Shown: positions 1 through 22,295 of the stretch, one piece after another
Numbering within the stretch: the stretch's first letter is position 1
Layout: every line of letters starts with the position of its first letter
Source of the DNA: Gemmatimonadota bacterium
GTDB lineage: Bacteria; Gemmatimonadota; Gemmatimonadetes; Gemmatimonadales; GWC2-71-9
Direction of reading: 5' to 3'
Assembly (NCBI GenBank): GCA_003223395.1
Contig: QHUZ01000052.1
Location: 1 to 64,000 of the forward strand
Length of the DNA stretch: 64,000 nt
Notes under the pieces: generated by a model
The model's input: only the letters and a program-made list of their open reading frames with translations
Told to the model about the DNA's origin: nothing
The model's database searches: none
Position numbers and translations under genes: made by a program

Positions 1-457
1 TGGGTTTTCATGCCGAACAGATGCGTCAGGGCGTGCGAGTACTTCGCGCTGAAGTGACCGTAGCGCACGCCGGCGTGGACTTCGACCGTGTTGTAGCGGT
101 CACCGGGATCGATGTTGTAACGCGCGCGCCGGGATACCAGTAGTACTGCAGCCCGAGATCCGTCCCGACCCTCCCGACCGTCCAACGGTACCCGCCGTAC
201 ACGTCGAGCTCGAGCGAGCCACCATTCAGGAACTGATTGCCGCTCACGTTGGAGCCCCACGTGGCCAGATACGCGCCGTTGACATGCGTGAAGTCCACGC
301 CCCCCTGCACCGCGGGCTGCGTGTAGGTCTGCGACAGCCCGCGAAATCGATAATCGCCCACGAGCGCCACATTTCCCGTGAGCGTGTGCGGCGACTGGGC
401 CGCGAGCGGCGCGGCGACTGCGGCCGCGATGGTCGACGCGATGAGCCGCGCGCGCAT
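1..457 (-). pseudogene. TorF family putative porin, partial at left edge and frameshifted
   Basis: The start ATG (457-455) overlaps the amt stop as TGATG. The product begins with a signal peptide ending L-A-A-Q and continues with GNVALVGDYRFRGLSQT, typical of the TorF/Gcw_chp outer-membrane family. After residues YYWYPGAR the frame ends at a stop near 26. Reading from about 119-129 in the next frame restores a sensible barrel sequence (YNIDPGDRYNTVEVHAGVRY) that is open to the window edge. One base therefore appears missing, or two extra, in the GC-rich run near 121-130. Its position after glnK-amt suggests an outer-membrane channel linked to ammonium uptake. This could be a sequencing error rather than true decay. 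Confidence 0.7.
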
Positions 458-17538: not shown

Positions 17539-18365
17539 CAGACCTTCGCTCTTCCCTTGGTGCGCGGTGCGGGGAGCCGTTCGCCCGCCGTCCGCTCCGG
17601 GAGGGCCCGGGTGGTGGAATCGGCGATCTTCTCCATGAAGCCCTTGAACAGGTCGATCGGAATTGGAAAGATGGTCGTCGAGTTGTTTTCGGACGCGATC
17701 TCGTTGACGGTCTGGAGGTAGCGGAGCTGGATCGCCGCCGGCTCGCGGCCGATGATCGCGGCCGCCTGCGCGAGCTTCTCGGACGCCTGCAGCTCGCCTT
17801 CGGCATTGATCACCTTGGCGCGGCGCTCGCGCTCCGCTTCCGCTTGACGGGCCATCGCGCGCTTCATCTCGGGCGGGAGATCCACGTCCTTGACTTCGAC
17901 GGCCGAGACCTCGATGCCCCACTCTTCGCAGCGGGTGTCGATGATCTGCCGCAGGATCGCGTTGATCTTCTCGCGATCGGCGAGGAGCTGATCCATCTCG
18001 GTTTCGCCCAGGACCGACCGCAGCGTCGTTTGCGCCAGCTGGCTCGTGGCGTACAGGTAGTTCTCGACGCCGACGACGGCCTTGTCCGGGGTCTTCACCC
18101 GCATGTACAACACCGCGTTGACCTTGATCGAGATGTTGTCGCGCGTGATCACGTCCTGCGGCGGAATGTCGATCGCCATGACGCGCAGCGACACCTTCTG
18201 CATCTTGGCGAGGAGCGGCGGCAGGAAAATAAGTCCCGGCCCTTTGGTGGGGCGCAGGTGGCCGAGCAGAAAGTAGACTCCCCGTTCGTACTCGCGCAGC
18301 ACGCGGAGCCCGGCGAACAGATAGAGGGCGATCGCTCCGATTGCCGCGAGGAGAATGTCGCTCAT
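17538..18365 (-). CDS. Slipin family SPFH/Band 7 membrane protein
   Basis: A 275-residue protein with one N-terminal membrane helix ([20 protein letters not shown]), then the SPFH domain ([60 protein letters not shown]) and an oligomerising helix ([20 protein letters not shown]). Slipins form membrane scaffolds, usually paired with an NfeD-type protease, which is not present here. The start ATG 18365 overlaps the thiolase stop. Sharing an operon with thiolase and hydroxyacyl-CoA dehydrogenase hints at membrane-lipid homeostasis, but that is inference. Confidence 0.93.
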
Positions 18366-19558
18366 AACACCTCGACGATGACGGCCGCGCCCTGCCCCCC
18401 GCCGATGCAGGCCGAGCCCAGGCCAAACCGCTTGTGCTCGCGCCTGAGCGCGTGCAGCAAATGAATCGTGATGCGCGTGCCGGTGGCCGCGAGCGGATGC
18501 CCGATCGCGATCGCGCCGCCGCACGCATTGGTGCGCGTGCGGTCCAGGCCGAGCTCGCGCTCGACCGCGAGGTACTGCGGTGCGAATGCTTCGTTCACTT
18601 CGACGAGATCCATCTGCTCCAGTTTCATGTTCGCCTTTGCGAGCGCCTTGCGGGCCGCGGGCGCGGGTCCGATGCCCATATGTCTGGGCTCGACGCCGGC
18701 GACCGCCCACGCGACCAGGCGGCCGAGCGGCTTCAAGCCGTGCGCCTTTGCATACTCCTCGCTCGCCAGCACCGTCGCCGCGCCGCCGTCCGAGATGCCC
18801 GACGCGTTCCCGGCCGTGACGAGCCCATCCTTCTTGAAGTACGGCTTCAGCCCGCTGAGTATTTCGAGCGTCGTTTCAGGCCGCATGTGTTCATCGGCGC
18901 GGAACTCGACTTCCTTCCCTTTCACTTTGATCGTGACCGGAATGACTTCGTCCTGGAACGCGCACGCGTCCCAGGCCTGCTTCGCGCGCTGCTGCGAGGC
19001 GACAGCGACTTCGTCGACTTCCTTCCGGGTGAGTTTGTACTTCTCGGCGAGGCTTTCGGCGGTCTCGGCCATCGACAGGCCGCATTGCGGGTCCTTCAGC
19101 GCTTCCCACAGCAGATCTTCGAGCGGCGCCGGTCCGAGGCGCAGGCCCCAGCGCGCGCCGCGGACGACGTGCGGCGCCTGGCTCATCGATTCCGCGCCAC
19201 CGGCGAGCACCGCGTCCGCCTCGCCGAGCAGAATCAGCTGGGCGCCCTGCGTGATGGCTTCGAAGCCCGAGCCGCACAGGCGGTTGACGGTCACGGCCGG
19301 CGCCTCGATCGGAAGCCCGGCCTTGAGTCCCACATGGCGGGCCATGTAGATCGCGTCGGCCGACGTCTGGAGTGCGTTGCCAAAAACCGTATGTCCGAAA
19401 TCGCTCGCGGGAACGCCGGAGCGCTGAATCGCGTGACGAGATGCCGCCGCGCCTAAGTCGATGGCGGAAAGGTCCTTCAAAGAGCCGCCGAACGCGCCGA
19501 ATCCCGTCCGAACCCCGGACAGGAAGACGACGTCTTTTGTGGCGCCCTGAGTTTTCAT
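18362..19558 (-). CDS. Acetyl-CoA C-acetyltransferase (thiolase)
   Basis: A 398-residue thiolase that condenses two acetyl-CoA or cleaves 3-ketoacyl-CoA. The acyl-accepting cysteine is Cys95 in [10 protein letters not shown]. Other catalytic elements are [24 protein letters not shown] and the second cysteine in CIGGGQGAA. The start [15 protein letters not shown] (ATG 19558) has GGAG eight bases upstream. It heads the operon that continues into slipin and, further on, the 3-hydroxybutyryl-CoA dehydrogenase. Confidence 0.95.
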
Positions 19559-19706: not shown

Positions 19707-21149
19707 TCAGCGCACGACGTCAACCCATCCGGCCTCATTGGCCACAATTGCGACCGTGCCAAGTGCATCGAAAGCGATGTGGCGGGGCAGGCCGCCCGTC
19801 TCGACCGTTCCGACGCACGCCAGCGTACACGCGTCAACCAGCGCGATCCGGCCGGCCGTCCGCATGCTGGCGTAGACGACGTGTTGATCTGGTGTCAGCG
19901 CCACTTCGTTTACCGCAGTGTCGAAGCTGCGTCTCACGATTTTCCCGGTGGGTAAATGCACCAGGTCGATCCAGCCATGTTCGTTGCCGCTATAGAGGCG
20001 CAGGCCATCGGCGGAGATCGCGATACCCAGCGGTTGCCCGCCCACCTCGTAGCGATGCATGACAGACAGGCTTCGCGCATCGAGCTCGAGGATGGTGCCG
20101 GCTTTCCAGGTGGGCGCATACACGCGGTTGCCCGCGGGATGGACGGCCAATTCGGTACACGCCTGCGGCAGCGGGGTTGAGCGCACGATCCGCCCGCCGT
20201 TGTCGGTGAGTGCGCAAGCGGACAAGCGATCGAGATTCGTCGAGACGTAGAGGGTTCGCGCGTCTGGCGACAGCGCCGCGCCAAGCGGATCGCCTTCCAT
20301 TCCGATGGAGCCGGTCCGGCGCCGGGAGGACAGATCGACGACGGCGACGTCCTTGGTGAACTGATTCGTCACCCATGCCCGATCGCCCGAGGGCGAGATG
20401 AGCACGCGAGTTGGCGCGATGCCGACGCGTATCACGCCGGTGGACGACAACGGTTGCAGCTGCAGCCGCTGGAGCACGGCCGCGTGGAGTCGCGTCAGCC
20501 AGGCAGCGCCATCGGGGGCGATCCGGACGTCGAATGGATAGCCGGCAAGCCCCAGTCGCGACGCGATCACGCCGCGGGGCCGGCCCAGTTGATCGGCAGG
20601 GGCGCGAGGAGGCTTGCGCACCGCACGGACGGCGTAATCGGGTCTGAAGTCGCCGGCCCCGACTGCGCGTGCGCCACTCCCTCCCCCTGCCGCCTCCTGT
20701 CGCGCCGCCGCCTGGAGATACGGTTGGAGCGCCAGCTGATGCATTCCGCTCCAGATCGTCCGAAACCGCAGGACCGCACCGGCGATGCCGCCGCGTCGGA
20801 CGCGCGACCACGGCTGCCCCATCAACCGGCGCACGACCCGGTAGCAGGTTGCGGGTTCGAGATGCGACTGACGCGCCAACGCGAGCAACGATGCCCCGGT
20901 CTGCTCCCACTGGTGGACCCAGTAGAACAGCCGCGTCCATGCGGCCAGCTCTTCGAGCGGTGGCAGGCTCGCCCGGCGGAGGGTGCGGGCGACTTGATGG
21001 CGGGTACGGAGGCCCAGGAACGCGGCGACGTCGCCTGCCGGCGGTAGCAGCCCATTCTTGCAGGCGAGCACATCGACGACGGCCCGTGCTTCACCCGACA
21101 ACGACGGGAGTGCGACATGGAGGATCTTGGCCAGCGGCAGTGGCGGCAT
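19707..21149 (-). CDS. Unusual protein: HTH-like N-terminus fused to a YVTN-type beta-propeller
   Basis: Residues 1-125 are helical and charged (GLRTRHQVARTLRRASLPP, SLLALARQSHLEPATCYRVV), resembling a DNA-binding helix-turn-helix region. A Gly/Ala-rich linker follows, then from about residue 180 a series of blades of the type GDPLGAALSPDARTLYVSTN, PLGIAISADGLRLYSGNEH and TPDQHVVYASM, typical of YVTN/NHL propellers. No signal peptide or membrane segment is apparent, so it should be cytoplasmic. I do not recognise this combination. ATG 21149 has AAGG five bases upstream. It is monocistronic with its own terminator. Confidence 0.7.
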   Translation of the reverse strand: MPPLPLAKILHVALPSLSGEARAVVDVLACKNGLLPPAGDVAAFLGLRTRHQVARTLRRASLPPLEELAAWTRLFYWVHQWEQTGASLLALARQSHLEPATCYRVVRRLMGQPWSRVRRGGIAGAVLRFRTIWSGMHQLALQPYLQAAARQEAAGGGSGARAVGAGDFRPDYAVRAVRKPPRAPADQLGRPRGVIASRLGLAGYPFDVRIAPDGAAWLTRLHAAVLQRLQLQPLSSTGVIRVGIAPTRVLISPSGDRAWVTNQFTKDVAVVDLSSRRRTGSIGMEGDPLGAALSPDARTLYVSTNLDRLSACALTDNGGRIVRSTPLPQACTELAVHPAGNRVYAPTWKAGTILELDARSLSVMHRYEVGGQPLGIAISADGLRLYSGNEHGWIDLVHLPTGKIVRRSFDTAVNEVALTPDQHVVYASMRTAGRIALVDACTLACVGTVETGGLPRHIAFDALGTVAIVANEAGWVDVVR

Positions 21150-21221
21150 CACTACCTTCGCCCGGGGGGATTAATTCGTACCCAGACTCAACGAATCAGT
21201 GCCCATTCTGTCAACTGGGAT

Positions 21222-22295
21222 TCAAACCAGGGTCCCCAAGGCAGATACGACGGCTTTCGTGCTGCCGTTACCGCCAAGGTCGGGTGTGCGGGCGCGACCC
21301 GCCAGCACCGTGCGGACCGCCCGCTTGAGGTCCGCTGCCGCGGCCGGGTGGCCAAGGTGCTCGAACATCAAGCCGCCGGTCAAGACCGCGGCAATGGGGT
21401 TGGCGACGCCCTTGCCGGTGAGGGCCGGCGCGGAGCCGTGCACCGGCTCGAACAGGGCGTGCCGGCTCCCAGGATGCAGGTTGGCGCTGGCCGCGATACC
21501 GAGTCCCCCGACGAGTCCGGCTCCCAGATCGGACAGGATGTCGCCGTAGAGATTGTTCGTCACAATGACCTCGAAGCGCTGGGGCTCCCGCACCAGCTCC
21601 AGCGCCAGGGCGTCCACGTAGCGATGCTCCGCCGTGATCCCCGGGTATTCCTTGGCCACTGTCTTGAACCGCTCCTGCCAGATCCGGTGCGTCGGAATTG
21701 CGTTCGACTTATCGCTCATCGTCACGCGCGTCTTGCCGTGCGCTTTCGCCCAGTCGAACGCCGCGCGGATGATCCGCTCGACGCCTTTGCCGGTGTTCAC
21801 TTCCTCAGCGATGTGCTCGTCTCCGCTCGAGCGGCCGCGGCCCAGATACTGGCCTTCGGTGTTCTCGCGGAAAATCACGAAATCGACGGCGGGACGACCG
21901 GACGGCCCGACGGCCGGAAGTCGAAGGGGAGTGAGATCGGGGTGGAGAAGTTCTACCGGCCGGAAGTTGACATAGAGATCGAGCTTGAATCGCAAGCCGA
22001 GCAGGATGTCGCGCGCGTGCTCGTTGCCCGGTACGCGCGCATCGCCGAGTGCGCCGAGCAAGATCGCATCCACATCATCACGCAGATGTTGGAACGCGGC
22101 GTCGGGGAGTGTTTCTCCCGTCTTCAAATAATGGTCGGCGGAATACGGCAGACGTTCCCAGGCCAGCGAAACCCCATGTTTTGCGGCCACACGATCCAAG
22201 ATTGGGATCGCCGCTTCGATCACTTCAGGGCCGATACCATCTCCAGCAATGACAGCGATCTTGGCCGTCCGGCCGTCGGGCCGTCGGGCCGTCAT
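21222..22295 (-). CDS. Isocitrate/isopropylmalate dehydrogenase family protein
   Basis: A beta-decarboxylating dehydrogenase of about 357 residues with the NAD/metal motifs IAVIAGDGIGPEV, FRENTEGQYLGRG, VTMSDKSNAI and NNLYGDILSDLGAGLVGGLG, plus PVHGSAPALTGKGVANP. Candidates are 3-isopropylmalate dehydrogenase, homoisocitrate dehydrogenase or tartrate/malate dehydrogenase; no leucine genes are nearby. The N-terminal MTARRPDGRTA and an internal PAVGPSGRPAV are each encoded by an 8-bp tandem repeat array. The true ancestral start may therefore be nearer KIAVIAGDG. The start overlaps the zinc-ribbon stop (ATGA). Confidence 0.9.
   Translation of the reverse strand: MTARRPDGRTAKIAVIAGDGIGPEVIEAAIPILDRVAAKHGVSLAWERLPYSADHYLKTGETLPDAAFQHLRDDVDAILLGALGDARVPGNEHARDILLGLRFKLDLYVNFRPVELLHPDLTPLRLPAVGPSGRPAVDFVIFRENTEGQYLGRGRSSGDEHIAEEVNTGKGVERIIRAAFDWAKAHGKTRVTMSDKSNAIPTHRIWQERFKTVAKEYPGITAEHRYVDALALELVREPQRFEVIVTNNLYGDILSDLGAGLVGGLGIAASANLHPGSRHALFEPVHGSAPALTGKGVANPIAAVLTGGLMFEHLGHPAAAADLKRAVRTVLAGRARTPDLGGNGSTKAVVSALGTLV
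21885..21916. repeat. 8-bp tandem array (GACGGCCG type) inside the dehydrogenase gene
   Basis: Four consecutive 8-mers: GACGGCGG, GACGACCG, GACGGCCC and GACGGCCG. The frame is preserved and encodes the loop PAVGPSGRPAV. Orientation is opposite to the array at the start of the same gene. Confidence 0.8.
22263..22294. repeat. 8-bp tandem array (GGCCGTCG type) covering the dehydrogenase start
   Basis: Four units GGCCGTCC, GGCCGTCG, GGCCGTCG and GGCCGTCA run directly into the start codon, so the last unit forms the minus-strand ATGACGGCC. The same arrangement recurs at 32126-32157 in an unrelated gene. Confidence 0.85.

Follow-up and report, generated by a model that had tools for sequence, protein, structure and literature searches.

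A single gene of a Gemmatimonadota genome joins an AraC-like double helix-turn-helix (HTH) head, through a variable linker, to a seven-bladed YVTN-type beta-propeller, both folds being predicted. The encoded protein appears to be a gene switch, in which a DNA-binding head would sit on a type of propeller that its relatives normally export, and would be a variant of the one-component regulators with a propeller as its input. We consider it reasonably probable that it acts as a one-component regulator in which the propeller, in the cytoplasm, is the part that responds to a ligand or partner. A preliminary description of the window (the whole stretch of DNA analysed, 64,000 nucleotides) had suggested such a regulator, and its interpretation is supported here, sensing of a ligand or partner being what we infer. 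Two points go beyond it: the HTH can be assigned specifically to the AraC-like type, and the propeller falls in the same group as the propellers with lipoprotein signals that adjoin 12 of 18 fusion genes. The features of the locus are as follows.

19707..21149, minus strand: HTH-propeller fusion gene, 480 amino acids plus stop, aligned with 16 homologues
20745..21149, minus strand: AraC-type double HTH domain, residues 1–135 (AF2 model, fold matches, profile matches, pI 11.5)
20571..20744, minus strand: linker, residues 136–193, variable and mostly modelled at low confidence (alignment and model; pLDDT below 50 at residues 138–145, 147–152 and 154–187)
19710..20570, minus strand: seven-bladed YVTN-type propeller, residues 194–480 (profile, sequence and fold matches, model)
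21222..22295, minus strand: upstream neighbour, isocitrate/isopropylmalate dehydrogenase family (Pfam Iso_dh, synteny)
18362..19558, minus strand: downstream neighbour, thiolase (Pfam Thiolase_N/C, synteny)

The fusion gene and its distribution

The open reading frame, whose strand and coordinates were already correct in the preliminary description, runs from an ATG at 21149 to a stop codon at 19707–19709 and encodes 480 amino acids; translation could also begin at a GTG one codon 5′ of the ATG, and just seven codons above the ATG remain open in this frame. It is a real gene, carried by a genome (G000) of 3.41 Mb in 123 contigs that is 97.6% complete. The nearest named relatives of this genome are Gemmatimonadetes metagenome-assembled genomes, with depth labels that suggest soil. 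A chance or chimeric reading frame was dismissed because fusions align across both domains and because dN/dS is low in five orthologue comparisons made with the window gene. The alignment has 17 rows, 16 of them complete fusions and one (L043) cut at its N-terminus by a contig end. Values of dN/dS were 0.065–0.113 for the head, 0.112–0.169 for the propeller and 0.13–0.45 for the linker, the fastest-evolving part of the protein; head and propeller are both under purifying selection, the head more strongly in all five comparisons.

Matches to the head occur in 40 of 101 genomes of the family, a sample from a larger group that includes the genome studied here. Among them are 17 fusions in 11 of the 101 genomes, six of which carry two. 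Across the phylum the head profile has a match in 85 of 395 genomes, and all matches under E 1e-28 lie within the family of the window; the weaker ones are mostly in longer open frames. A further genome scan gave 18 loci, comprising 16 fusions, a single solo head and a locus with two propeller proteins (L073); judged by length, their contigs are those of the family set except for L073 and L065. The latter is the eighteenth fusion and lies on a contig deposited as Acidobacteria gp6 (QHWT01000129.1). Its visible order of family-2 glycosyltransferase (GT2), fusion, lipoprotein genes and acyltransferase is that of the Gemmatimonadota loci, and for this reason mis-binning is more likely than transfer. 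Stand-alone AraC-like heads without a sensory domain were also seen (L004/L038, at G000:C15:8584-9012, and L018–L028); ten of these, in open frames of 138–217 amino acids, were aligned, and one (L026) is split across two frames.

The AraC-like head

The preliminary description had noted a helical, DNA-binding-like N-terminus and had named structure prediction and a profile search of residues 1–125 as the way to check it. Both point to the bihelical AraC/XylS fold. An AF2 model of residues 1–131, built from an alignment of 19 heads (nine fusions and the ten stand-alone proteins), has a mean pLDDT of 92.1, a pTM of 0.85 and eight helices. It shows the AraC/XylS hallmark, two HTH units joined by a long helix in a domain of about 100 residues, the long helix of the predicted model being that at residues 65–84.

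Residues 4–13, 19–30, 38–44, 50–59, 65–84, 88–94, 99–110 and 114–130, minus strand: helices of the head (AF2 model)
20973..21002, minus strand: putative recognition helix of the first HTH, residues 50–59 (alignment and model; role inferred from alignment to HTH_18 proteins)
20820..20855, minus strand: putative recognition helix of the second HTH, residues 99–110 (alignment and model; role inferred)

AraC-type domains are the best-matching solved structures. In VIA-align, AraT (Z 11.1), 3oio (10.9), MarA with DNA (9.6) and AraC (9.2) matched the model. A Z under about 13 can arise from an arrangement that many helical models share; against this speak the gap that separates unrelated rows and the fact that the matches cover most of the domain. 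The first 28 rows (Z 11.1–5.6) are all regulators of the AraC/XylS family, some of which we take to belong there from their names where the titles are silent; the next row has Z 4.8. Foldseek gave no match under E 0.001 for the head model, its best rows being AraC, MarA, STM3175, CdpR and others, with probabilities of 0.97–1.00. By hhalign, the profile of the 19 heads matched that of six HTH_18 regulators of the same genome over 108 columns (probability 95.2, E 2.9e-8). These six all exceed the Pfam cut-off and were picked by family, not found with the head. Controls from the same genome gave probabilities of 1.3 for five IclR-type regulators (E 0.04) and 1.7 for eight TetR-type regulators (E 0.028). 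A further match, over 125 columns (probability 96.2, E 2.7e-9), is to five longer relatives of the head, all five with an HTH_18 match, which had been found using the head itself and were chosen by eye among eight loci (L029–L036).

The relation to AraC is visible only by these structural and profile-profile routes. The head of the window protein is below every Pfam HTH cut-off shown, and HTH_18 and HTH_AraC are both absent from the Pfam matches of the protein; the head is accordingly termed AraC-like and not a member of HTH_18. Weak Pfam matches among the 19 heads were to HTH_IclR (six heads, best E 0.0083), HTH_AraC (three, best 0.001) and HTH_18 (two, best 0.024). No AraC chain was among the best 60 of 155 matches (up to E 10) of the head profile to PDB sequences; the lysozymes in the top rows of that search, at E 0.06 and above, were taken as chance.

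In the putative recognition helices, R50, Q52 and R55 of the first HTH and Y103, R104 and R108 of the second are invariant in all 17 aligned fusions, and R50, R55 and W114 are common to the fusions and the ten stand-alone heads in the alignment. The 16 complete heads of the 17 rows have a pI of 10.0–11.6, and the last 290 residues of the fusions one of 6.3–9.2. Together, fold, profile match, invariant helix residues and basic pI suggest that the head binds DNA.

The propeller

The YVTN-type propeller named in the preliminary description is real. The window protein scores 44 bits against NCBIfam beta_rpt_yvtn (TIGR02276; cut-off 27.85) and 32.3 bits against Pfam Lactonase (cut-off 21.7), the latter with a best stretch confined to residues 413–472. 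Its closest solved sequence is the surface-layer propeller 1l0q (E 3e-27), which is also the best structural match to the propeller model (E 5.9e-22). That model is regular and all-strand, with pLDDT block means of 88–95, and the protein has both the YVTN repeats and the seven-bladed fold. WD40 scaffolds such as G-beta and RACK1 are numerous among the best 50 structural matches listed. Two equivalogs fall short of their cut-offs: YncE (NF052280), at 52.5 against 400 bits, and 6-phosphogluconolactonase, at 12.7 against 370.

Gene neighbourhoods

Eighteen fusion loci were compared, 17 from the family and L065, and they fall into two main places. In the window, the stop of the dehydrogenase gene is 72 bases from the fusion gene, and dehydrogenase, fusion and thiolase are all on the minus strand. 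This order, without a lipoprotein gene between, is found in six loci (the window and L044–L048). In two others (L050, L051) the dehydrogenase and thiolase flanks are farther off, and a gene for a lipoprotein with two propellers lies between fusion and thiolase. The second place, seemingly that of ten of the 18 loci, has the order KpsF/API, LptC, LptA, LptB, RpoN, GT2, fusion and at least one propeller lipoprotein, followed in most by a methyltransferase or hexapeptide acyltransferase and then other genes. RpoN and GT2 are visible in eight of these ten; L065 shows GT2 only, and the cut locus L043 only downstream genes. The names RpoN, GT2 and hexapeptide come from Pfam, those of Lpt, KpsF and methyltransferase from inspection by eye, and a gene labelled as a deacetylase had no Pfam match at the threshold used.

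In 12 of the 18 loci, a propeller gene with an apparent lipoprotein signal is directly downstream of the fusion on the same strand. The window locus and those of its five closest orthologues have no such gene; the genome of the window retains a full pair on contig C87, where a second fusion (G000:C87:21480-23999; L037, 8481–11003), 42% identical to that of the window, is followed by a propeller lipoprotein within an LptC-LptA-LptB-RpoN-glycosyltransferase locus. Two propellers occur in some of the downstream lipoproteins, and a Big-type Ig-like domain in one of them that was scanned. The two propellers of the L041, L042 and L043 lipoproteins are linked by unbroken runs of 22, 19 and 25 prolines. 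PADLOC gave no match for the window fusion or for one lipoprotein; the sole match of a second lipoprotein, at E 0.0098, was taken as chance, and a role in a defence system was set aside.

Location of the protein

Location was judged from lipobox patterns and hydropathy, the latter also applied as a filter to the lipoproteins. Among the 17 fusions with an N-terminus, none has a strict lipobox in the first 60 residues, against 8 of 12 first downstream lipoproteins. A loose lipobox occurs in 13 of the 17 (residues 27–30, VLAC or similar) and in 11 of the 12 lipoproteins, L053 being missed; as it does not discriminate, only the strict pattern was used. In the window protein, charged residues directly precede the loose site and the orthologues L011 and L012 lack the cysteine, so the site was read as chance. 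It is missing in 4 of the 17 fusions, and falls inside the predicted helix 19–30 of the head. Hydropathy maxima over the first 60 residues were 0.62–1.45 for the fusions and 1.36–2.39 for six lipoproteins, ranges that touch, and within residues 1–200 of the window protein no stretch of 17 residues has a mean hydropathy above 1.12. Given no convincing sign of export, the absence of a signal peptide reported in the preliminary description stands, and we conclude that the fusion protein is, as far as its sequence indicates, cytoplasmic.

Export of the fusion, with the N-terminal helices as an export or anchoring element, is what its propeller relatives would lead one to expect, as they carry lipoprotein signals, and the loose lipobox of the majority of fusions is in line with it. 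The strict pattern is absent from the 17 fusions and present in 8 of the 12 lipoproteins, and the loose site, missing in 4 of the 17, follows charged residues in the window protein and lies in a helix of the AraC fold; export is extremely improbable.

Origin of the fusion

A search with the C87 lipoprotein gave matches in 24 of the 101 family genomes, fusions being counted among the matches. Thirteen loci have such a propeller gene and no fusion within their flanks (L113–L122, L124, L125 and L073), and ten of these (L113–L118, L120–L122 and L073) have RpoN, GT2 and then the propeller gene without an HTH match. Two genomes (G015, G077) combine this fusion-free order with a fusion-lipoprotein pair at another place. 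The 11 propeller proteins of the ten loci have a strict lipobox in four cases, a loose one only in four and neither in three (L116, L121 and the second of L073). Right after rpoN-GT2, with or without an intervening fusion, L040, L052, L053, L073 and L113–L122 have YVTN-like propeller genes whose products bear apparent lipoprotein signals.

The propellers of the fusions and of the lipoproteins are homologous, and form a group (100/99) to which two further propeller proteins of the genome studied here do not belong. In a tree without an outgroup, the 18 fusion propellers lie behind one branch (97/90). With two outgroup rows, and with 12 of the 41 rows of the former tree left out, 96% of bootstrap trees have a branch that sets the fusions to one side, with a support of 80/15. 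Both trees counted the two L073 propellers as lipoproteins beside a fusion, though L073 has no fusion, and this label is wrong for 2 of its 15 rows in the outgroup tree. In a tree of the heads, eight of ten solo heads stand apart, and L022 and L023, on a long branch, lie within the fusion group at an open fork. A single origin of the fusion is likely from these trees. Since ten other loci hold a propeller gene at the same place without a fusion, the fusion looks like a propeller of the lipoprotein group attached to an AraC-like head; its propeller may derive from within the lipoproteins, the deep forks of the outgroup tree being weak (80/15 and 89/78).

In the simplest history, the propeller lipoprotein at the rpoN-GT2 locus would be old, and a propeller of its group would there have been joined to an AraC-like head, of the sort that this bacterial family also has as a solo protein. 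The fusion-lipoprotein pair would later have been copied into the dehydrogenase-thiolase locus, where the lipoprotein may have been lost, or never copied, in the lineage of the window.

DNA upstream of the fusion

A direct repeat upstream of the fusion gene is a candidate operator or promoter.

21188..21215, minus strand: direct repeat GTTGA-N18-GTTGA upstream of the fusion, candidate operator or promoter (conservation)

In the six dehydrogenase-thiolase loci without a lipoprotein, the repeat is exact in four and has one mismatch in two, and it persists where the DNA between has diverged (L047, L048); in 11 other loci scanned, the best match has at least three mismatches. Of shuffled versions of the window sequence, 39% contain some exact 5-mer direct repeat at a spacing of 18–26; what counts is thus solely the conservation at a fixed spacing, among sequences related by descent. 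The first copy holds a TTGACA box in four of the six loci, which we take to be the −35 consensus. The two copies of the repeat may serve as half-sites or as promoter elements.

Two other candidates were rejected. An AT-rich block near the start codon, noticed by eye as a possible operator common to both kinds of locus, has a pattern (GGWATTAATNCC) that occurs once in the genome, at neither fusion gene, and an inverted repeat at 21174–21196 loses its palindromic form in the orthologues. By eye, a TATTAAT- or TATTAAA-like box stands roughly 5–13 bases ahead of the fusion start codon in L037, L039, L040, L041, L042 and L052; were it a −10 element, the transcripts would have little or no leader.

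Comparison with known regulators and propellers

Rob (1d5y) and STM3175 (7r3w), both among the fold matches of the head, have the same order as the fusion, an AraC-type head followed by a linker and a C-terminal sensory domain; in both, the head stands first and the ligand domain last (PMC10414762). Their C-terminal domain is GyrI-like, whereas that of the fusion is a seven-bladed propeller.

To our knowledge, the known systems with a propeller and an HTH, the hybrid two-component systems (HTCS), sense outside the membrane, and many HTCS end in an AraC-type HTH. Those of Bacteroidetes with Reg_prop double propellers are similar to the fusion in that they couple a propeller sensor to transcription control (PMC3243724). 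In these, the propellers lie in the periplasm and pass their signal on by way of membrane, histidine kinase and receiver domains, unlike the window protein, which has no kinase or receiver match in Pfam and no membrane segment by hydropathy within residues 1–200.

The fusion shares its seven-bladed YVTN propeller with 1l0q and E. coli YncE (3vgz), but differs from propellers of this type in having no convincing signal peptide and an extra N-terminal domain of DNA-binding-like character. The lipoproteins of the lptCAB-rpoN-GT2 locus are closer, with a propeller homologous to that of the fusion and a terminal NE.GWVD-like motif that is similar by eye; in contrast to the fusion, they have an apparent signal peptide, mostly a lipobox-like cysteine and no HTH, and some have Ig-like domains or two propellers. 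A literature search, judged by titles and the starts of abstracts and covering work outside subscription, found no AraC-propeller or YVTN-HTH regulator; in the part of PMC10599522 at hand, the YVTN and HTH proteins are separate genes.

Proposed mechanism and alternatives

In the mechanism that we favour, the N-terminal double HTH would bind DNA, a flexible linker would tie it to the cytoplasmic propeller, and the propeller, as a sensory or partner-binding domain, would alter the activity or assembly state of the head. Such a regulator probably arose at the LPS-transport/rpoN/glycosyltransferase locus, where an AraC-like head would have gained a propeller of the lipoprotein group. Its most likely target in most loci is its own operon, the lipoprotein included, and regulator and lipoprotein may have a ligand or partner in common, as the homology of the two propellers suggests. 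As the window locus has no lipoprotein gene, the target there may be the fusion gene itself or distant genes. A more specific form of this mechanism, which we hold only tentatively, is that duplication made a matched sensor-effector pair: a cytoplasmic copy of the surface propeller, on an AraC-type head, would read the same ligand as the exported lipoprotein. That ligand might be, e.g., an envelope glycan or its precursor, handled outside by the lipoprotein, while its internal level would set the surface protein and the neighbouring polysaccharide genes.

Other roles for the propeller would leave out sensing. Propellers are common interaction platforms, and the propeller could be a scaffold that assembles a sigma factor, polymerase or enzymes at promoters, or that multimerises, with the HTH as its DNA anchor and no control by a ligand. 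The WD40 scaffolds among the best 50 structural matches listed, and the lack of an identified catalytic motif in the propeller, are consistent with this. Proteins with lipoprotein signals use the same propeller group, which suggests that it also has something to bind outside the cytoplasm; a scaffold is still compatible with this, and we regard a pure scaffold as unlikely though worth keeping in mind. An enzyme, e.g., a lactonase-like one, whose gene is autoregulated by the attached head, would agree with the Pfam Lactonase score; the shortness of the best stretch of that match, near the C-terminus, and the very low score of the 6-phosphogluconolactonase equivalog speak against it, and we give it little credence.

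A different objection concerns the head, which might be a degenerate AraC-like module for protein contacts or for RNA, without sequence-specific DNA binding. Its sub-threshold standing in Pfam, and the absence of an AraC sequence from the 60 of 155 PDB profile matches listed, would fit such a module. The invariant positions of the putative recognition helices in the 17 aligned fusions and the strongly basic character of the head would not, nor would the sharing of R50, R55 and W114 with the ten stand-alone heads, and a degenerate head is in our judgement improbable. A one-component regulator with a cytoplasmic propeller as its sensor is the reading that we retain.

If true, this reading would illustrate how a surface protein of the same locus can be turned into a one-component regulator, and the YVTN propeller lipoproteins of these Gemmatimonadota would gain a first lead to their function. 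Most loci encode regulator and lipoprotein side by side, so that both the ligand and the control of the operon are directly testable.
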